Assembly: GCA_024689865.1 (NCBI GenBank)
Contig: JAILDA010000028.1
Location: forward strand, 1-34,961
DNA from: Clostridia bacterium
GTDB lineage: Bacteria; Bacillota; Clostridia; Peptostreptococcales; Anaerovoracaceae
Length of the DNA: 34,961 nt
Direction of reading: 5' to 3'
A model generated the notes under the pieces. It was not told the origin of the DNA. It saw only the letters and a program-made list of their open reading frames with translations, and made no database searches. A program made the position numbers and the translations under genes. Position 1 is the first letter of the stretch; every line of letters begins with the position of its first letter. Below, in pieces: positions 25,955 through 34,961 of this stretch.

Positions 25955-27376
25955 ATGGAAAGTAAAACATTAAAAGTAATATCAAAGGATAAAGAGACAG
26001 ACATCCGTTTCTCCGGAAGGACAAAACTGTCCGGACTGCTGGAAGCCGAAGGGCTTATGCCAGCAACTCCCTGCGGCGGAAACGGCACCTGCGGAAAGTG
26101 CAGCGCCTATCTCAACGGAGAAAAGATCCTTTGCTGTCAGGCATGGGTGGAGGAAGACGGCGAGCTGCTGCTCCCGGAAAAGCAGATCCTCAACAAGATA
26201 AAGACCGACGGCGAGATGCCGGAGTTCAGCATCAAGGATCAGGACGGCTACGGACTTGCCGTGGACATCGGCACTACTACAGTTGTCGCAAGGATCATAG
26301 ACCTCAGGACCGGAAAGCTGCTTCCCGCAGTCTCCAGAGAGAATCCCCAGAGGCTTCTCTCCGCGGACGTCATCGGAAGGATACAGGCCTGCATAGAAAA
26401 AGGAAAGCTTCCTGTGCTCAGGGGCCTCATCAACGAAACGATAGAAGACCTCCGCGAGCACGACCTGAAGATCTGCGGACTTACGGAAGAGGACATAAAG
26501 AAGACCGTCATTACAGGCAACACCACCATGCTCTACCTGTACACGGGACGCATGCCCACCACGCTCGCCTACACTCCGTTCATAGCGGACTGCCTCTTCG
26601 GATTTGAGGAAAACGGCGCATATCTGCCGCCCTGCTTCGGAGCATTCGTGGGCGCAGACATATATACCGCCATCACTGCCAGCGGTCTCATAACCAAAGA
26701 CGAGGCTGCTGTCCTTGTGGACCTCGGCACCAACGGAGAGATAGCGCTTTTCAACAACGGAAAGCTTACATGCTGCGCAACAGCCTGCGGTCCTGCCTTC
26801 GAAGGCACCGGAATCAGCTGCGGCGGACCGGCCGCTAACGGAGCCATAGACCACATATGGCTGGAAGACGGACAGGTCAGATATTCGGTGATCGGCAACA
26901 CCGCACCCACGCACATCTGCGGCAGCGGAATAATGGACGCCATCGCAACGCTGCTGGAACTGGAAGAGATCGACGAGACCGGAGCAATGCCGGATCCCTA
27001 CGAGTTCGCTCCCGGAGTGGTACTTCAGCCTAAGGACGTCCGTCAGGTGCAACTTGCAAAGGCCGCCATCTGCGGAGGCATACGCACCCTCATCAACCGC
27101 GAGGGACTTAAGCCGGACGACATTAATACTTTATACATAGCAGGCGGCTTCGGATCTTACATAAAGCTGGAAAATGCTGTAAAAGTAGGCATTTTCCCGA
27201 AAGAAATGCAGGATAACGCAAAAGTTATAGGCAACGCAGCCCTTTCAGGTGCTATAATGATATTATTGGGCGCCGACAAGAAGTACGAACCGTCTTCGGT
27301 AGAGACCGAATGCATCAACCTTGCACAGCAACCCGAATTTTCGGATCTGTATATGGAATCAATGTTTTTTGAGTAA
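25955..27376 (+). CDS. 2Fe-2S ferredoxin-ASKHA (DUF4445/RACo-RamA-like) reductive activator protein
   Basis: 473 aa; PCGGNGTCGKCSAYLNGEKILCC ferredoxin motif, ASKHA motifs GLAVDIGTTTVVARIIDL, LVDLGTNGEIALF, CGSGIMDAIA, YIAGGFGSYI. Confidence 0.9.
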   Translation: MESKTLKVISKDKETDIRFSGRTKLSGLLEAEGLMPATPCGGNGTCGKCSAYLNGEKILCCQAWVEEDGELLLPEKQILNKIKTDGEMPEFSIKDQDGYGLAVDIGTTTVVARIIDLRTGKLLPAVSRENPQRLLSADVIGRIQACIEKGKLPVLRGLINETIEDLREHDLKICGLTEEDIKKTVITGNTTMLYLYTGRMPTTLAYTPFIADCLFGFEENGAYLPPCFGAFVGADIYTAITASGLITKDEAAVLVDLGTNGEIALFNNGKLTCCATACGPAFEGTGISCGGPAANGAIDHIWLEDGQVRYSVIGNTAPTHICGSGIMDAIATLLELEEIDETGAMPDPYEFAPGVVLQPKDVRQVQLAKAAICGGIRTLINREGLKPDDINTLYIAGGFGSYIKLENAVKVGIFPKEMQDNAKVIGNAALSGAIMILLGADKKYEPSSVETECINLAQQPEFSDLYMESMFFE

Positions 27377-27394
27377 TATTTAGAGGAGAGAAAA

Positions 27395-28387
27395 ATGACA
27401 CCCAAGGAAAACTTACACGCATTCTTCGAAGGAAAGAACTATGAGTGGAAGCCGGTAGGAACAGACAAGAAGTCCTTCCAGCCGGAAGAGATCTGCGAAT
27501 ACGTAGCCAGAGCTTTCGTTAAGCAGCAGGAGCCCTTCGATAACGCAGCCAAGGGCGGCGGCATCGGCTGGTTCGGCATCGAGTGGGAGTACGAACCCGG
27601 CGCAGGCGGATCCATAAGCCTTGCTCCGATACTCGACGAAGTATCCGAATGGAAGGAAAAGATGGTATTCCCCAACCTGGACGAGATCGACTGGGAAGGC
27701 ATAGCCAAGAAGAACGCAGACTACCTCAACACAGACCTCGGCATAGAGTTCACCGTATTCACCGGATACTTCGAGAGACTCATCTCCCTGCTCTCCTTCG
27801 AAGAAGCAGCGATGGAGCTCATAATGGAAGATTACGAGGACGACATTCACGAGCTCTTCACAGCGCTCACTGATTTCTACATCGACTTCGCCCAGAGATT
27901 CCGCAAGTACTTCAACGCCGACTGGTGCATAATCCACGACGACTGGGGCACCCAGAGATCGCCGATGTTCTCCCCCGAAGTACACAAGAGGATGATCGTT
28001 CCGCACCTCACCAGGTTCGTTTCCGAGTGCCACAAGGTAGGACTGCTTGTTGAGATGCACTCCTGCGGATTCATCGAAGACCTCATCCCGAACCTCATCA
28101 GCACCGGCATCGACAGCTGGGCAGGCCAGGGCATCTGCGACAAGAGAAAGCTGATCAACCTGTACGGCGACCAGTTCAAGTTCGAAGTCATCACCAACCC
28201 GGATCCGAAGAAGCCGCTCAAGACCAAGGAAGAGGCTATAGAATTTGCTGACAATATCTTTGATGAATTCAAGGATAAGGACATCATGTTCTGGACAAGC
28301 CCGAAGCGCTGCGGCAGCATGGAGATCTATCAGACCGTCTGCCAGGAACTCAAGGCAAAGGGAATCGCTTACAGAAAGAACGCATAA
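27395..28387 (+). CDS. Uroporphyrinogen decarboxylase-family (corrinoid methyltransferase-like) protein
   Basis: 330 aa; UroD/MtaA-like fold; candidate Zn ligands HSCGF and late Cys in SPKRCGS; AGAGGAGAG ribosome-binding site. Confidence 0.85.
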   Translation: MTPKENLHAFFEGKNYEWKPVGTDKKSFQPEEICEYVARAFVKQQEPFDNAAKGGGIGWFGIEWEYEPGAGGSISLAPILDEVSEWKEKMVFPNLDEIDWEGIAKKNADYLNTDLGIEFTVFTGYFERLISLLSFEEAAMELIMEDYEDDIHELFTALTDFYIDFAQRFRKYFNADWCIIHDDWGTQRSPMFSPEVHKRMIVPHLTRFVSECHKVGLLVEMHSCGFIEDLIPNLISTGIDSWAGQGICDKRKLINLYGDQFKFEVITNPDPKKPLKTKEEAIEFADNIFDEFKDKDIMFWTSPKRCGSMEIYQTVCQELKAKGIAYRKNA

Positions 28388-28406: not shown

Positions 28407-28435
28407 AAAAGACCCCGCTTCCAGCGGGGCCTTTT
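28407..28435. terminator. Bidirectional terminator between convergent UroD-family and PrpD genes
   Basis: AAAAGACCCCGCT-TCC-AGCGGGGCCTTTT near-perfect hairpin with A/T tails on both sides. Confidence 0.88.
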
Positions 28436-28467: not shown

Positions 28468-29850
28468 TTACAGCATTTCGACTATCTTTCCGACGTCGTC
28501 CAGTTTATCAACGCCTTCCAGCATCTTCAGGAGGTCCTCCTGCTGCTCTTCTGTATAGCGGTTTGCGGACAGCGCGGTGCAGCTTCTGAATTTTTCGCGG
28601 AACTGCTCGTCGGAAAGCGGGCAGGACGGATCGCCCAGAGCAGCTTCTTTGTGTTTGAAGAAATCGCCCTTGGCAGTGTGGTAGGTTATGTCCACCGTAT
28701 TCGCCTTTATGCGCGGAGCGTACTCCGGTTCGACGGAGAAATTCACCCTCTCCGCAAATCCGTAAATGTCTTCATCCGGAAGATTCTCCGGCAGGAAATC
28801 CGAGAGCACCACCCTTCCCTTTTTAGCCGCAAGTCCCATGCAGTAAGGAATGCTGAACTTGGCGCTTATGGCTGTAACAGGTCTGTTCTTGACCTCGCGA
28901 GGGTCCACGACTATGCTCCTTATGAACTCGGAACCTTTCATGTCTACGGAAAGGATATCTTCGAACTTCAGATCGTTCTCCTTCATCACCTCTATGGTGG
29001 ACTGGATGCTCGTATGGCATCCAAGGCACGCCGGCCAGAATTTTATTACAAGCTCAGACGCGTACCATTTTTCTCCAAGTCCTTCCACCAGTTTCTCCGG
29101 AACGCATCCGGCTCTTGAATATGCCTTAAAGAAGCCCTTCTCGCCTTCGAATAGTTCCTCGAAACCTATGCGGGGTCTGTGCTTAGCCAGAAGTACGGCC
29201 TGGACCGCGGACTTTGCTCCGAAGCCGTCGCGTACAGCTCTCATGAGCGAGTTCTTGTCGTTCATCATCTGCGAAAGGCCTGTTGCAGCGTATGCGTTGC
29301 AGCCCAGTGCATCTAAAGTCTGCTCGTAGTCGTATCCCATAAGCCTGCAGCCGGCCAGGACGGCACCGTAAGATCCGAAGACATGCGGTGTATGCCACCC
29401 GTGCTTGGCCAGATCCTCTCCTGTAGCAATGGATACGCGGCAAGCTATCTCAGAGCCTATAAGAAGCGCTGCCAGAAGTTCTTTACCGCTCACGCCGCCC
29501 CTGTACTGAGCAAGAGACAGAAGAGCCGGCGTCGTTACGGCATTGGAATGCAGAGTAGCAGCCTGACATGTGTCCTCAAGATCCATGGAGTGCGAGAGCG
29601 CAGCGTTTACAAGAGCCGCGGTGTCCGGCTGCACATGCAGATCCGTAGAATAGATCTTGCACGGCCCGGTCTCGCAGTGCTCTTTTGCGTACGCCACGAA
29701 AGACGGAAACGCGGGATTCTGCGTTGTTGCAGCCTCTATGCATCCCAGTGCGTCCATCAGGGAGTGTTTCTGCACATCCAGGTATTCCGGAGGTATATCT
29801 TCTGTCTTTGTATTTAAAGCGAAATCTATGAGTCTGCGCGTTATGTCCAT
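28468..29850 (-). CDS. MmgE/PrpD family protein
   Basis: Preferred start MDITRRLIDFALNTKTEDIP at 29850 behind AAGGAGA; PrpD landmarks AALVNAALSHSMDLEDTCQAATLHSNAVTTPALLSLAQ, KHGWHTPHVFGSYGAVLAG. Confidence 0.92.
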   Translation of the reverse strand: MDITRRLIDFALNTKTEDIPPEYLDVQKHSLMDALGCIEAATTQNPAFPSFVAYAKEHCETGPCKIYSTDLHVQPDTAALVNAALSHSMDLEDTCQAATLHSNAVTTPALLSLAQYRGGVSGKELLAALLIGSEIACRVSIATGEDLAKHGWHTPHVFGSYGAVLAGCRLMGYDYEQTLDALGCNAYAATGLSQMMNDKNSLMRAVRDGFGAKSAVQAVLLAKHRPRIGFEELFEGEKGFFKAYSRAGCVPEKLVEGLGEKWYASELVIKFWPACLGCHTSIQSTIEVMKENDLKFEDILSVDMKGSEFIRSIVVDPREVKNRPVTAISAKFSIPYCMGLAAKKGRVVLSDFLPENLPDEDIYGFAERVNFSVEPEYAPRIKANTVDITYHTAKGDFFKHKEAALGDPSCPLSDEQFREKFRSCTALSANRYTEEQQEDLLKMLEGVDKLDDVGKIVEML

Positions 29851-29878
29851 GGTCATTCTCCTTGCAGAGCAGAAAAAC

Positions 29879-29908
29879 ACGGGGCAATGCCCTCAGGCAC
29901 TGCCCCGT
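29879..29908 (-). terminator. Terminator-like hairpin between CapA-like and PrpD genes
   Basis: ACGGGGCA-(ATGCC CTCA GGCAC)-TGCCCCGT followed on the minus strand by GTTTTTCT; only about 28 nt upstream of the PrpD ATG. Confidence 0.8.
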
Positions 29909-29920
29909 TTTGCGTTGTAA

Positions 29921-31054
29921 CTATTCGGTAACTATGCGTACCTCGTCGCCCTCGATGGCGAACTTAGGCTCGATCTTCTGGTTCTCCGTGATCTCGGTAA
30001 CGTAATCTATTACCTCCTTGAACCTGGGGTTCTCGTGAGTCAGGATCTCCGGAACGAAGGTATCGTCGTCGATCCATACGGGAACGTAGGTGAACTTGTC
30101 GATCTTACCGTCCTTAAGATACATCTTGGCAATGATGGTCTTGCAGGAATCGTAAGGCATCGTGCGCTTCGGATGCTTCTTGAAGTCGTCGTTCAGCTTA
30201 CGGATGTCGGCGTGGCGGGAGTCGTTTATGAGTCCGTTCTTGCCTTCGAAGTAAGCCGCCGGGCCTTCGGTAGCGAAGTTGGCCAGCGAGTAGAATATCG
30301 GCTTGCCCTTGTATACTTCTATACCCTTGAGTATGTGAGTGTGGTGGCCGATGACTACGTCCGCGCCTTCGTCCAGAGCGTAGTGTCCTACTATCCTCTG
30401 ATAGTCGGCTATGACTGCCGGAGTGAAGTGGATGCCCCAGTGCTGGGAAACTACCAGTATGTCTACCTGCGGGCGCAGCTTATGGATGTCCTCGATCATG
30501 TTGTTGAGGTCATCTATGTGCGGCCAGCTGAAGATCCTTACCGGCGTACCGGGCTGATCGTGCTCTACGCACGGAGCCGCGGTTATTCCGCGCATCGGGT
30601 TTGCTCCCGGCCTGTCGACCAGCGCCCAGTAATCCTGAGGCAGTATGGAGCAGTATCCGAGGAAGCCTATCCTGGTCCCGTCGTCTAGAGTCCTGATCAC
30701 AGGCTTTCTGGCTTCTTCAAGATTGTTTCCTGCGCCTATGATGTCGATCTCCGACTCCTTCATTATGCGCATGGTATCGTAGAAGCCTTCGAAGCCCCAG
30801 TCCATTACGTGGTTTCCGGCGTTGGACATAACGTCGAAGCCGGCCCTCTTAAGGCAGGGACCCGCGGACGGATATATGCGCAGCGGCAGTCTGCACTGGC
30901 AGGCCGGAGCGCCTTTGTCCGTAACTACTGCTTCCAGCTGTCCGAACAGAAGATCGCAGTCATGAAGATAATCGTTAGTCTTCGCGAAAATGCTGTCCAT
31001 GTCCGGACGCTTGGGGGCGGTATCGCCTACGAATAAAACTGTTTTGTTAGCCAT
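29921..31054 (-). CDS. CapA-like metallophosphatase-fold protein, no signal peptide
   Basis: Preferred start MANKTVLFVGDTAP at 31054; FGQLEAVVTDKG, MSNAGNHVMDWG, VVSQHWGIHF, ADVVIGHHTHILKGIEVYKGKPIFYSLANF. Confidence 0.88.
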   Translation of the reverse strand: MANKTVLFVGDTAPKRPDMDSIFAKTNDYLHDCDLLFGQLEAVVTDKGAPACQCRLPLRIYPSAGPCLKRAGFDVMSNAGNHVMDWGFEGFYDTMRIMKESEIDIIGAGNNLEEARKPVIRTLDDGTRIGFLGYCSILPQDYWALVDRPGANPMRGITAAPCVEHDQPGTPVRIFSWPHIDDLNNMIEDIHKLRPQVDILVVSQHWGIHFTPAVIADYQRIVGHYALDEGADVVIGHHTHILKGIEVYKGKPIFYSLANFATEGPAAYFEGKNGLINDSRHADIRKLNDDFKKHPKRTMPYDSCKTIIAKMYLKDGKIDKFTYVPVWIDDDTFVPEILTHENPRFKEVIDYVTEITENQKIEPKFAIEGDEVRIVTE

Positions 31055-31090
31055 GTTATCCTCCGAACAATTATGTGGCTGATCCGGCAA

Positions 31091-32401
31091 TTAAAGTACA
31101 ACACCGAGTATGGTAAGGATGATGCCGCCGAGCACTACGCCGATGAGGCATACTACCAGCTGTCCGGTAACCAGTCTCTTGGCTATGGACTCGTCGCGGT
31201 TCATTCCCATGAATACAGCGCCGCCTGTGCTGAACGGGGACATACCTGTGAAGTGTGCACCCAGAACTGCAGCAAGGAAGAGCACCATCGGGTTGAGTGT
31301 TCCGCCGGAAGACTGAACGAGCTGCGGTACGATCGGAGCGACCATCGGGAATACGACGGTGATTCCTCCGGAGAAGGAGGACAGGAATGCTCCGAGCAGG
31401 CACATGAAGAAGGGCAGCAGCCAGTTGGGAATGGTAGCTGTGAGCCAGTCGGAAATGATCTTGACTGCGCCGGCCTGAACAGCAACGGCCATCAGCATGG
31501 AGATTCCGGAGAGGAGCAGCAGCGTGTTCCACGGGCAGGCAGCGATTACCTTCTTGGGCTCGGCCAGCTTAAGGAAGTGCGCGAAGATGAAACCGATCAG
31601 GCAGAGCACCTGAATGTCGCAGAATCCGGAGAAGCTCTTCATGAACGCTCCGCCGATCTTCCAGGTGTTGAGCATGCCCGGTACTACTGCGAAGAATACT
31701 ACGCAGAGGATCAGGATGAGGGTGGTCTTCTGCTCTCTGGTGAAGGCAGCAGGCTCTTCCATACCAACGATGGCCTTTACCTTGTAGCCCTTCCAGATGA
31801 AGAAGCAGATGACAATCAGCAGGATGGATACGATCACGCTGATGAAGAAAATGCTCCAGGTGAATCCGCCGGACTCAGCTTCGTAACCGTTGGCAGCTAT
31901 GTTGGCGTCGATGATGGCACCGGAAGCTCCCCAGCGAACGAAGGAACCTGCGTTTGCGGAATAACCGAGGGATGCGCAGATAAGCGGGTCAACGCCCGAC
32001 GGAACAGCAATGGTGAAGCCCATTACAGCCAGAATGGCGCCGGCAGCCGGCGGTACGCAGCCGAGGATACCAAGGGCGAAGCCTATGATCATCAGCATGA
32101 ATACCAGCATGGACGGCCTTTTTCTGGTCGCGTACAACATCTTTTCGGCTACTGCCTTCATCGTTCCGTTCACGACGCCTACGCCGAAGAACAGGGACAG
32201 AGACATTACCTGGAAGAATACGCTGGTCGGGAACATAGCGATGACGTTCTTAACACGAAGACCCATGAACAGGACGCCGATTATGAACGCGAACACCATC
32301 GCAGATACACCCATCTGCAGGTTGAACTTGTAGCTGAGGAATATAGCCAGAGCTACACCGATCAAGCACAGTATTACTATTGTGCCGTTTACACCTTCCA
32401 T
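31091..32401 (-). CDS. SLC13/MatC-type dicarboxylate permease
   Basis: Multi-TM; starts MEGVNGTIVILCLIGVALAIFLSYKFNLQMGV (MatC-N-like) behind TAGGAGG; C-terminal SGGITVVFPMVAPIVPQL and HFTGMSPFSTGGAVF. Confidence 0.82.
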   Translation of the reverse strand: MEGVNGTIVILCLIGVALAIFLSYKFNLQMGVSAMVFAFIIGVLFMGLRVKNVIAMFPTSVFFQVMSLSLFFGVGVVNGTMKAVAEKMLYATRKRPSMLVFMLMIIGFALGILGCVPPAAGAILAVMGFTIAVPSGVDPLICASLGYSANAGSFVRWGASGAIIDANIAANGYEAESGGFTWSIFFISVIVSILLIVICFFIWKGYKVKAIVGMEEPAAFTREQKTTLILILCVVFFAVVPGMLNTWKIGGAFMKSFSGFCDIQVLCLIGFIFAHFLKLAEPKKVIAACPWNTLLLLSGISMLMAVAVQAGAVKIISDWLTATIPNWLLPFFMCLLGAFLSSFSGGITVVFPMVAPIVPQLVQSSGGTLNPMVLFLAAVLGAHFTGMSPFSTGGAVFMGMNRDESIAKRLVTGQLVVCLIGVVLGGIILTILGVVL

Positions 32402-32441
32402 TTTTAACCTCCTAAAAATGAAAACTAGAATTGCTGAGGTC

Positions 32442-33350
32442 TCAGTGCATTCTGCAGTCGAGACCAAGGTTTATGAATATACGTTTGTAACTCTCCTTTT
32501 GTTCTGCTGTCGGAGAGGTAACGCCTTCCAGAAGATACGGAATGTTGAGCATCTTATACTTGCCCAGTCCGAATCTGTGGTACGGAAGAAGATCCACATG
32601 CAGCGACGGATCCAGTTCCTTTACGAACTCCGCCGTTGCGGCAAGGTTCTCTTCCGAGTCGTTGTATCCCGGTATTACCGGAATGCGTATGAATATCTTT
32701 ACCGGATATTTGTGTATCTTTTTTAGGTTCTCCAGGATGAGCTCGTTGCCGAAGCCTGTGTACTCCCTGTGCTTTTCCGTATCCATATGCTTAATATCAT
32801 ACAACACAAGGTCCGTGTACGGCAGAACTTTTTCTATGTTCTCCGAAGGAAACTGTCCGCAGGTATCCAGAGTGGTATGTATCCCCTCTTCCTTGCACCT
32901 TCTGAACAGTTCAGCCACGAATTCCGGCTGGAGCATGGCTTCGCCTCCCGAACACGTGACGCCTCCGCCGGAAGTCTCGTAGAAGCCTTTGTCCTTCATT
33001 ACTTCTTCGAAGACTTTGTCTATCGTCTTCTCTTCGCCGTAGAAGAACATCGCATGCGACGGGCATACCTGGGTGCAGGTGCCGCAGGACACGCACTTTC
33101 CGCGGTCTATGCTTATTGCGCCGTCCTTTACGGAAAGCGCCTGATTGGGGCAGTTCTTGACGCACATGCCGCACTTTACGCATATGGGCGCCCTGTGAGC
33201 CAGCTGCCTTACGGCCTTCTGAGACTCCGGATTGGCGCACCAAAGACACCTTAAGGGGCAGCCCTGAAGAAAGACCGTGGTCCTTACTCCGGGGCCGTCC
33301 TCGGTAGAAAAGTGCTGGATATTGAATACTTGTCCTTTTATCTGCGGCAT
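32442..33350 (-). CDS. Glycyl radical enzyme activating enzyme (radical SAM, two 4Fe-4S ferredoxin motifs)
   Basis: 302 aa; STEDGPGVRTTVFLQGCPLRCLWCANPES (CX3CX2C), CVKCGMCVKNCP, CVSCGTCTQVCP, GGGVTCSGGEAMLQPEF. Confidence 0.95.
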   Translation of the reverse strand: MPQIKGQVFNIQHFSTEDGPGVRTTVFLQGCPLRCLWCANPESQKAVRQLAHRAPICVKCGMCVKNCPNQALSVKDGAISIDRGKCVSCGTCTQVCPSHAMFFYGEEKTIDKVFEEVMKDKGFYETSGGGVTCSGGEAMLQPEFVAELFRRCKEEGIHTTLDTCGQFPSENIEKVLPYTDLVLYDIKHMDTEKHREYTGFGNELILENLKKIHKYPVKIFIRIPVIPGYNDSEENLAATAEFVKELDPSLHVDLLPYHRFGLGKYKMLNIPYLLEGVTSPTAEQKESYKRIFINLGLDCRMH

Positions 33351-33370
33351 TTGCTCTTCCTGGTCGCGTC

Positions 33371-33390
33371 CGGACCGCGTTTACGGTCCG
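33371..33390. repeat. Inverted repeat/hairpin between the GRE and activase genes
   Basis: CGGACCG-CGTTTA-CGGTCCG, 7-bp perfect arms, in a 48-nt intergenic gap; no U tract. Confidence 0.7.
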
Positions 33391-33398
33391 ATGCGCAC

Positions 33399-34961
33399 TT
33401 ACATTGCTTCGCTGGTCCTGGATATGATCTCGTTCCTGAGGCTCTTGGGAAGATCCACGAAGAACGCGCTGTATCCGGCTACGCGTACCATGAGGTTCGG
33501 ATGCTGTTCCGGATGCTCGCTGGCTTCAATAAGCAGATCCTGGTCGATAATGTTGATCTGTACGTGGAATCCGCCGTGAGTGAAGTACTCCTCAAGCATG
33601 GCGCCCAGGTTCTTGATGTTGTCCGGGTTGTTGAACAGTCTCTTGTCGAACTTCATGTTCATGAGCGCCGCGGTGGAGTTGTCTACGTGCACCGCCTTGG
33701 ACGCGGAGTTGAACACGCAGGTGGGTCCGTGCGTGTCGCAGCCCTGCGAAGGCGAGCAGAATCCGTCGGCAATGGGCTCTCCGTCCTTATGGCCGCTGGG
33801 CAGCGGGCCGGTCCTTCTGCCGAAGGTAACGTGAGCCATCGCTCCGGAACGTCCTCCCCAGAGAGGTGTTCCGAACGGGTTCTTTTCTTTCCACATTCTC
33901 TCCTGGAGCCATACGGACAGCTCGGAGAAGGTCTCGTCTGCGTAGTCGTCGTCGTTGCCGTACTTAGGCGCGGACTTGAGCAGAGCTCTTTCGTACTCGT
34001 AGCCTTCGAAGTTGTGGTCCATAGCCTCTATTATGCGGTCTACGGTAAGCTTCTTGTCGTCGAACACCAGCTTGCGGATGGCCGTTAAGGAGTCGGAAGC
34101 ATCCTGAAGTCCGCGGTCTGCTATGTGATACAGGAAGGACGGATACCTTACGCCGCCGGCTCTTGCGTCCATGCCCTTTTCCAGGCAGTCGCCCAGAAGA
34201 GCGGAGAGGTACGGAGTGTGGAAGCTGTTGATGTCTACGTACGCGGATACTCTGGCCGCCTTGGCCATGTCAGCGATCAGAACGTCGAACTGCTTCTTGA
34301 ACGCGTCCTTGAATTCCTCGAAGGTCTTGAAGTTTCTGGGATCTCCGGTGTGGGGGCCTATCTGGACCTTGGTCTTGGGATCCATGCCGTCGTACATTAC
34401 GAACTCCATGATCTTGGCAAGGTTTATGTAGTTGATGCCCAGCGATCCGCCGTGGGTGGAATATCCGCCGATCAGCGATCCTGCGCAGCCCAGAGCGCTC
34501 CAGTTGCGGGCGTCTTCTATGGGCATTCCTCTCTTGAGGAAGCCGGGGATCCTGGTCTCGTCGCTCATGTAGGCCGGGTTGCCGTCGCCTCTGCGGACGT
34601 TTACTTCTATGGCCTTGTACCATACGCGCTTGTCTATGTTCTTATGGTAGCGGACATAGATCGGCGGCTGCGGCAGATTGACCTGAGCCTGACACTCAAG
34701 AATAAGATAGGACAGCTCGTTGGAGGCGTCCCTTCCGTCCGCGGTCTGACCGCAGAGAGTGGTAGCCTGAAGAGTGGTTCCGGGAATGTTGTTCTTTTCG
34801 TAGTTGTTCTTCACTACGGAGATCTCATTGATCTTTACCAGTACCAGGGCGAACAGTTCCGCGGCGTCCTGACGGGACAGCGTTCCGTTCTCTATTACGT
34901 CCTGCTTGTACATCGGGTAGAGATACTGGTCGATGCGGCTGGGGGACTCTGCCTGGAAAGA
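33399..34961 (-). CDS. Glycyl radical enzyme of the pyruvate formate-lyase family (partial, N-terminus outside window)
   Basis: C-terminal glycyl radical motif NLMVRVAGYSAFF; Cys loop NWSALGCAGSLIGGY; IGPHTGDPRNFKTFEEFKDAF; FGRRTGPLPSGHKDGEPIADGFCSPSQGCD. Reading frame continues to the window edge. Confidence 0.93.
   Translation of the reverse strand, partial: SFQAESPSRIDQYLYPMYKQDVIENGTLSRQDAAELFALVLVKINEISVVKNNYEKNNIPGTTLQATTLCGQTADGRDASNELSYLILECQAQVNLPQPPIYVRYHKNIDKRVWYKAIEVNVRRGDGNPAYMSDETRIPGFLKRGMPIEDARNWSALGCAGSLIGGYSTHGGSLGINYINLAKIMEFVMYDGMDPKTKVQIGPHTGDPRNFKTFEEFKDAFKKQFDVLIADMAKAARVSAYVDINSFHTPYLSALLGDCLEKGMDARAGGVRYPSFLYHIADRGLQDASDSLTAIRKLVFDDKKLTVDRIIEAMDHNFEGYEYERALLKSAPKYGNDDDYADETFSELSVWLQERMWKEKNPFGTPLWGGRSGAMAHVTFGRRTGPLPSGHKDGEPIADGFCSPSQGCDTHGPTCVFNSASKAVHVDNSTAALMNMKFDKRLFNNPDNIKNLGAMLEEYFTHGGFHVQINIIDQDLLIEASEHPEQHPNLMVRVAGYSAFFVDLPKSLRNEIISRTSEAM

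Follow-up and report, generated by a model that had tools for sequence, protein, structure and literature searches.

Gene content of the locus

The window analysed here, a stretch of 34,961 nucleotides, is the entire contig C58 of G000, a metagenome-assembled genome (MAG) of a Clostridia bacterium of the family Anaerovoracaceae (1.5 Mb, 69% complete), and its right end carries a minus-strand row of genes headed by a glycyl-radical enzyme (GRE). The five consecutive genes on which the original prediction had been built were present where it placed them, with agreeing Pfam assignments for all five. Intergenic gaps within the row were 36–64 bases, and its features were as follows.

33399..34961, minus strand: GRE, C-terminal 520 of 821 amino acids with the 5' part off the contig (PF02901, PF01228; active-site motif GCAGSLIGGYSTHGG; glycyl loop VRVAGYSAFF)
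32442..33350, minus strand: radical-SAM GRE activase with a CX3CX2C motif and two ferredoxin-type clusters (TIGR02494, 366.8 bits, cut-off 174)
31091..32401, minus strand: MatC_N/CitMHS (SLC13-like) permease (PF07158, PF03600; orthologues in other loci 60–100%)
29921..31054, minus strand: CapA-like (PGA_cap) metalloprotein (PF09587; MslH-type residues D11, E41, N81, H82, D85, H205 and H240 present)
29879..29908, minus strand: hairpin resembling a terminator or attenuator, at the end of the four-gene core (also at this position in L016, L019, L014 and L015)
28468..29856, minus strand: MmgE/PrpD family protein in a variable fifth position (PF03972, PF19305)

Because the window is a whole contig, the GRE is cut by the contig end; a full-length copy of 821 residues, 99.6% identical to that of the window, was supplied by the orthologous locus L016 (L016:9098-11563). 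Comparison with a second orthologous locus, L014, gave ratios of nonsynonymous to synonymous substitution (dN/dS) of 0.060 for the GRE, 0.080 for the activase, 0.095 for the permease and 0.067 for CapA. The range over these genes and the flanking UROD gene was 0.06–0.12, and they are therefore coding genes under purifying selection.

Distribution and boundaries of the operon

Among 85,462 species genomes scanned, orthologues turned up in foregut MAGs of goat, sheep and buffalo (92–100% identical) and in two mouse-gut MAGs (72–73% over the part in the window), the rest of the matches being GREs only 34–35% identical. Within the host family, five of 352 genomes carried the GRE, all of them ruminant MAGs of one genus, and three more had a GRE with 40% identity.

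The order GRE-activase-permease-CapA was common to all readable loci, with the activase adjoining the GRE in the window and in the orthologous loci L016, L014, L015, L017 and L019. Upstream of the GRE lay a divergent LysR-type gene (L016, L014 and L017), and beyond it glycerol kinase, VanY and HemN-like genes, together with FeoAB in L014. A GC-rich hairpin of about 11–15 bp followed CapA directly in all five ruminant loci examined. The conserved core thus consists of a divergent LysR gene and GRE-activase-permease-CapA, and ends in a conserved hairpin. The gene past the hairpin was PrpD in three loci (window, L016, L019); in the other two, L014 and L015, it was a 3-hydroxyacyl-CoA-dehydrogenase-like (3HAD) gene, behind which L014 has a weakly cupin-like gene. 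Since PrpD lies past the hairpin and is replaced in these two loci, it does not belong to the core, and the five-gene unit first proposed was drawn one gene too long. The expectation that homologous GREs would share the permease, CapA and PrpD held for the first two in all readable orthologous loci and not strictly for PrpD. No match to 3HAD at E 1e-40 was found in genome G004 (98% complete), so PrpD and 3HAD seem either to stand in for one another or to be separate additions.

Genes on the plus strand flank the operon on its other side.

28413..28429, plus strand: hairpin resembling a terminator, where the PrpD and UROD genes converge
27395..28387, plus strand: URO-D/MtaA-like methyltransferase, a flank and not part of the operon (PF01208; adjoins glycerol kinase in L125 and L126)
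25955..27376, plus strand: RACo-type corrinoid activation protein, flank (PF14574, PF17651; likewise L125 and L126)

In two same-genus genomes lacking a match to this GRE (G009, locus L125, and G005, locus L126), glycerol kinase directly adjoins the UROD and RACo genes, which marks UROD/RACo as the older flank. Exactly between glycerol kinase and UROD/RACo sits the LysR-to-PrpD block in L016, and the same gap is occupied in L014 by a LysR-to-cupin block plus FeoAB. The locus is a discrete inserted operon between older flanks. UROD and RACo were considered as operon members and rejected on gene order; they also point the opposite way. No corrinoid-protein gene was recognised beside them in the window (25955-28387), and UROD copies occur in tandem in sister species.

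The glycyl-radical enzyme

Membership of the GRE superfamily was clear from a PF01228 score of 96.9 bits, the invariant C460 and G797 (L016 numbering) and the adjacent activase. The protein was not a pyruvate formate-lyase, having a single Cys (GCAG) instead of Cys-Cys and 98 bits for TIGR01255, against 994. With the NCBIfam equivalogs for HypD, HpsG, CutC, IAD, HPAD and PflD, the L016 GRE reached roughly 50% of the respective cut-off at most (full-length bits/cut-off: HypD 507/1100, HpsG 505/1000, CutC 442/1050, IAD 410/1100). HypD, the second-best NCBIfam model and 33% identical, differs in having a GC[VI]E motif where the window GRE has GCAGS, and no proC-type neighbour was seen at the locus.

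The glycerol/propanediol dehydratase GREs (DhaB1, PD) are alike in fold family, catalytic Cys and glycyl loop (1r9d, ~35% identity), and C433 and G763 (glycerol dehydratase numbering) were kept in ruminant and mouse members. The residues H164, H281, S282, E435 and D447, which line the glycerol site of the 1r9d structure, were A, Q, A, G and G in the ruminant and mouse GREs (five of five checked); thus both the base Glu and the hydroxyl-binding His, Ser and Asp of DhaB1/PD are replaced. The Glu two residues after the catalytic Cys, an eliminase-GRE feature common in alignments to the glycerol dehydratase, CutC, HypD, PflD, YbiW and IslA types, was Gly in four of four members of the window clade. 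Two GREs elsewhere also depart from this motif: one of Clostridium transplantifaecale (L023:9092-11530, GCAGIQPTRKD), likewise without the Glu and on another tree branch, and one on a Peptoclostridium acidaminophilum plasmid (L077:144-2513), which has GCVVP for GCVEP and groups with CutC. No shell or aldehyde genes were seen among the locus genes read; the absence of shell proteins, first remarked for the visible part alone, extended to the upstream genes identified in L016, L014 and L017.

These residues bear on whether the GRE is an eliminase that dehydrates a hydroxylated di- or tricarboxylate in a re-built pocket (conserved GAK, QAES and STHGG), the product being taken by PrpD or a 3-hydroxyacid dehydrogenase. 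Its best solved match is indeed glycerol dehydratase (E 3.2e-141), and PrpD and 3HAD are hydration and dehydrogenation enzymes that fit hydroxy-acid chemistry, but every one of the five pocket residues examined has been replaced, Glu included, and such an eliminase is considered unlikely.

In two maximum-likelihood trees the window clade joined GREs with GCLGYH and GCVWP motifs (support 98/97), apart from glycerol dehydratase, HypD, CutC, IslA, YbiW, PflD and 7e7l. In a separate tree, built without 7e7l and IslA, GREs with the GCLDAV motif also joined the window group, so the deep placement depends on sampling. The glycerol dehydratase, 8id1, IslA and 7e7l sequences were without their terminal parts because they were copied from printed HMMER alignments. 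BssA, MasD and clostridial HPAD were outside the trees, and PDB scores put these below glycerol dehydratase in similarity (X-succinate synthases 4pkc, 306 bits, and 9o8u, 320 bits, against 476). No small-subunit gene of the X-succinate synthase type (BssA, MasD) or of the HPAD type was seen at the locus. As first predicted, the GRE lay outside the characterised isofunctional families tested, by model cut-offs as well as by its separate position in the trees. These sequence comparisons describe it as a putative new branch, outside the characterised families that were placed (BssA and clostridial HPAD not in the tree).

The arylacetate and hydroxyphenylacetate decarboxylases (7e7l, HPAD, IAD) deserve separate mention, as 7e7l is likewise without Glu after the catalytic Cys. 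The GRE might then be an aromatic-acid decarboxylase, with the neighbouring methyltransferase and RACo acting on methoxylated plant aromatics. UROD and RACo do adjoin the operon, UROD-like genes stand beside GREs in other loci (L130/L131 and L134), and tannase/feruloyl-esterase genes occur at CapA-PrpD loci of Novosphingobium ES2-1 and Croceicoccus. However, UROD and RACo are older than the insertion and oppositely oriented, the window GRE falls outside the 7e7l group, and the MatC and Tct transporters favour small carboxylates, which makes an aromatic substrate distinctly improbable.

The CapA-like and PrpD-like proteins

The CapA-like protein starts with MANKTVLFVGD and, judged by eye, has no evident N-terminal hydrophobic anchor. 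Its nearest solved relative was MslH, a calcineurin-like metal-dependent epimerase with an active site of metal-binding residues and His/Asp dyads (PMC10406935). MslH residues D11, E44, N87, H88, D91, H259 and H295 have counterparts in CapA, while the position of H261 is Gly; the MslH model score was 84, against a cut-off of 700, and the window locus is without a lasso precursor.

Class-wide, among 388 sampled genomes, no close homologue of CapA (E 1e-60) was found outside the window's own genome. CapA relatives showed recurrent neighbours. A same-genus copy (~56% identical) stands beside another GRE as CapA-GRE (L121), and copies with 41–44% identity occur with PrpD and TctCAB and no GRE (L119) and in L120, where the order is GRE-CapA-TctB-TctA-TctC-PrpD, the activase is convergent and the GRE is of a different branch. 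The combination of GRE, CapA, PrpD and carboxylate transporter thus recurs independently. On Novosphingobium and Croceicoccus plasmids, CapA (40–45%) and PrpD (32–34%) lie on the same strand, parted by a membrane-protein-like gene or, in ES2-1, by further genes; the hosts are aerobic and GRE is absent. For the hypothetical gene that separates CapA from PrpD in Novosphingobium, a relationship to UROD was considered and rejected. TonB receptors lie near these CapA-PrpD units (L030, L031, L032 and L033), two of which, in Novosphingobium ES2-1 and Croceicoccus, hold the tannase/feruloyl-esterase-family genes mentioned above. Other CapA relatives lie with TctC, PrpD, tartrate dehydrogenase or LeuCD genes, or occur with TRAP transporter, CoA-transferase III and 2-hydroxyacyl-CoA-dehydratase genes in L031 (ES2-1) and L123, the genes of L123 having been identified by eye from sequences, not by Pfam.

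The PrpD-like protein was not a 2-methylcitrate dehydratase equivalog (NF042438, 38.8 bits, against 950). Iminodisuccinate epimerase 2hp3 was its nearest solved relative (E 7.9e-31), followed among the best PDB matches by cis-aconitate decarboxylase (~1e-20); both share the PrpD fold family, but the resemblance is remote and function is not transferable. Since PrpD recurs with GRE and/or CapA in other loci, its functional link with them is likely.

Chance neighbourhood, with CapA an envelope protein, PrpD a housekeeping enzyme and no pathway in common, would accord with the naming of PGA_cap for capsule synthesis and with the hairpin that parts PrpD from the core. Against this, CapA-GRE and CapA-PrpD adjacency occurs in several separate locus types and a second phylum, and no capsule genes, capB and capC included, were recognised in the loci read. 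Coincidence is therefore highly improbable, and by association CapA here would be an organic-acid enzyme instead of a capsule protein. No described GRE/CapA/PrpD locus was found in the open literature; the enzymes of PMC13081902 are amidohydrolases and irrelevant here.

Other glycyl-radical enzyme loci

The GRE repertoire of the genus is unusual, genome G010 having a single activase above cut-off for its 15 glycyl-radical domains. Its 38-kb contig C66 (L129, L130 and L131) carries eight GRE genes, mostly with GCLD/GCVD motifs, interleaved with triplets of FAD_binding_4, CCG Fe-S and FAD-oxidase genes, LysR-like genes, a UROD-like gene and DUF169. Contig C50 of the window's own genome bears a second GRE locus (L043, L044), with a GCVWP GRE, 3HAD, two PrpD, a MatC permease and glutamate dehydrogenase, as well as two tandem GCLDAV GREs and no activase recognised nearby; its counterpart in G010 (contig C70, L141) additionally has TctC-like and cupin-like genes. 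In each of two genomes a small protein of ~190–225 amino acids, similar-looking in both, adjoins the GRE activase (L120:7352-7918 and L140:10221-10895).

In the sister clade, locus L042 (G202:C236:1-20000) has the order GCLGYH GRE-activase-MutE with B12 domain-MutL-PrpD-alcohol and aldehyde dehydrogenases, with a TRAP transporter and molybdopterin oxidoreductase upstream. This arrangement of GRE, activase, mutase genes, PrpD and transporter is what would recommend the window GRE as a mutase or isomerase that acts on a branched dicarboxylate without cobalamin and corresponds to the glutamate- or methyleneglutarate-type mutases. The mutase genes of L042, however, come in addition to the GRE, and the window locus has none, so that this role is very unlikely.

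Proposed pathway

The locus is read as an inserted operon by which rumen and mouse-gut Bacillota break down a small carboxylic acid, with a non-eliminase GRE and a CapA processing step, an interpretation given about even chances of being right. The substrate is probably a di- or tricarboxylic acid, perhaps hydroxylated and apparently of a plant type; this class, proposed originally, is plausible from the transporters and neighbours. The LysR protein would sense the acid, which the permease, going by its family, would import. From its family and adjacency, the activase is expected to install the glycyl radical on the GRE, whose cysteine thiyl radical would then attack the acid or a processed form of it. 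The outcome, the weakest step, may be radical decarboxylation or other C–C bond cleavage, a non-eliminase course being favoured since eliminase GREs have a carboxylate base and hydroxyl-binding residues that this GRE lacks. By comparison with MslH, CapA may prepare or process the acid, whether by hydrolysis or by metal-dependent acid/base chemistry that, for instance, epimerises the carbon adjacent to a carboxylate, and PrpD (as lyase or isomerase) or the 3HAD-like enzyme would lead the product into central metabolism.

Several points weigh against this interpretation. The reaction type is deduced from residues that are missing and from remote relatives, and another set of residues could support elimination; 7e7l, a solved decarboxylase-like GRE (GCVLH, without Glu), groups with other GREs of the genus (98/97) and not with the window clade. 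For CapA, phosphoester chemistry is conceivable as well as hydrolysis or epimerisation. AlphaFold2 models were discarded for low confidence scores (pLDDT 55 for the GRE from 7 sequences, 47 for CapA from 4). Every member comes from a MAG, and the mouse contig stops short of the fifth gene.

Significance

GREs with known functions form a small set. Many abundant gut GREs have unknown functions, according to a review (PMC11574389). The present locus combines a sharply delimited operon with a GRE that lacks the eliminase residues and with a CapA enzyme occurring alongside, and probably marks an unknown anaerobic degradation pathway. Aerobic CapA homologues lie beside PrpD in the culturable Novosphingobium aromaticivorans, where the two genes of strain DSM 12444 are SARO_RS17930 (CapA) and SARO_RS17920 (PrpD). 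Together with the bounded operon, this opens a way to the substrate through ordinary gene deletion in that aerobe and anaerobic GRE reconstitution. It would assign catalytic roles to CapA-like and PrpD-like proteins, whose routine annotation is capsule synthesis or 2-methylcitrate dehydratase. More tentatively, the window GRE and its GCLGYH and GCVWP kin may represent a new GRE class for radical C–C cleavage or isomerisation of aliphatic di- and tricarboxylates, with the CapA-fold metalloenzyme as an unrecognised organic-acid step common to gut anaerobes and aerobic sphingomonads.

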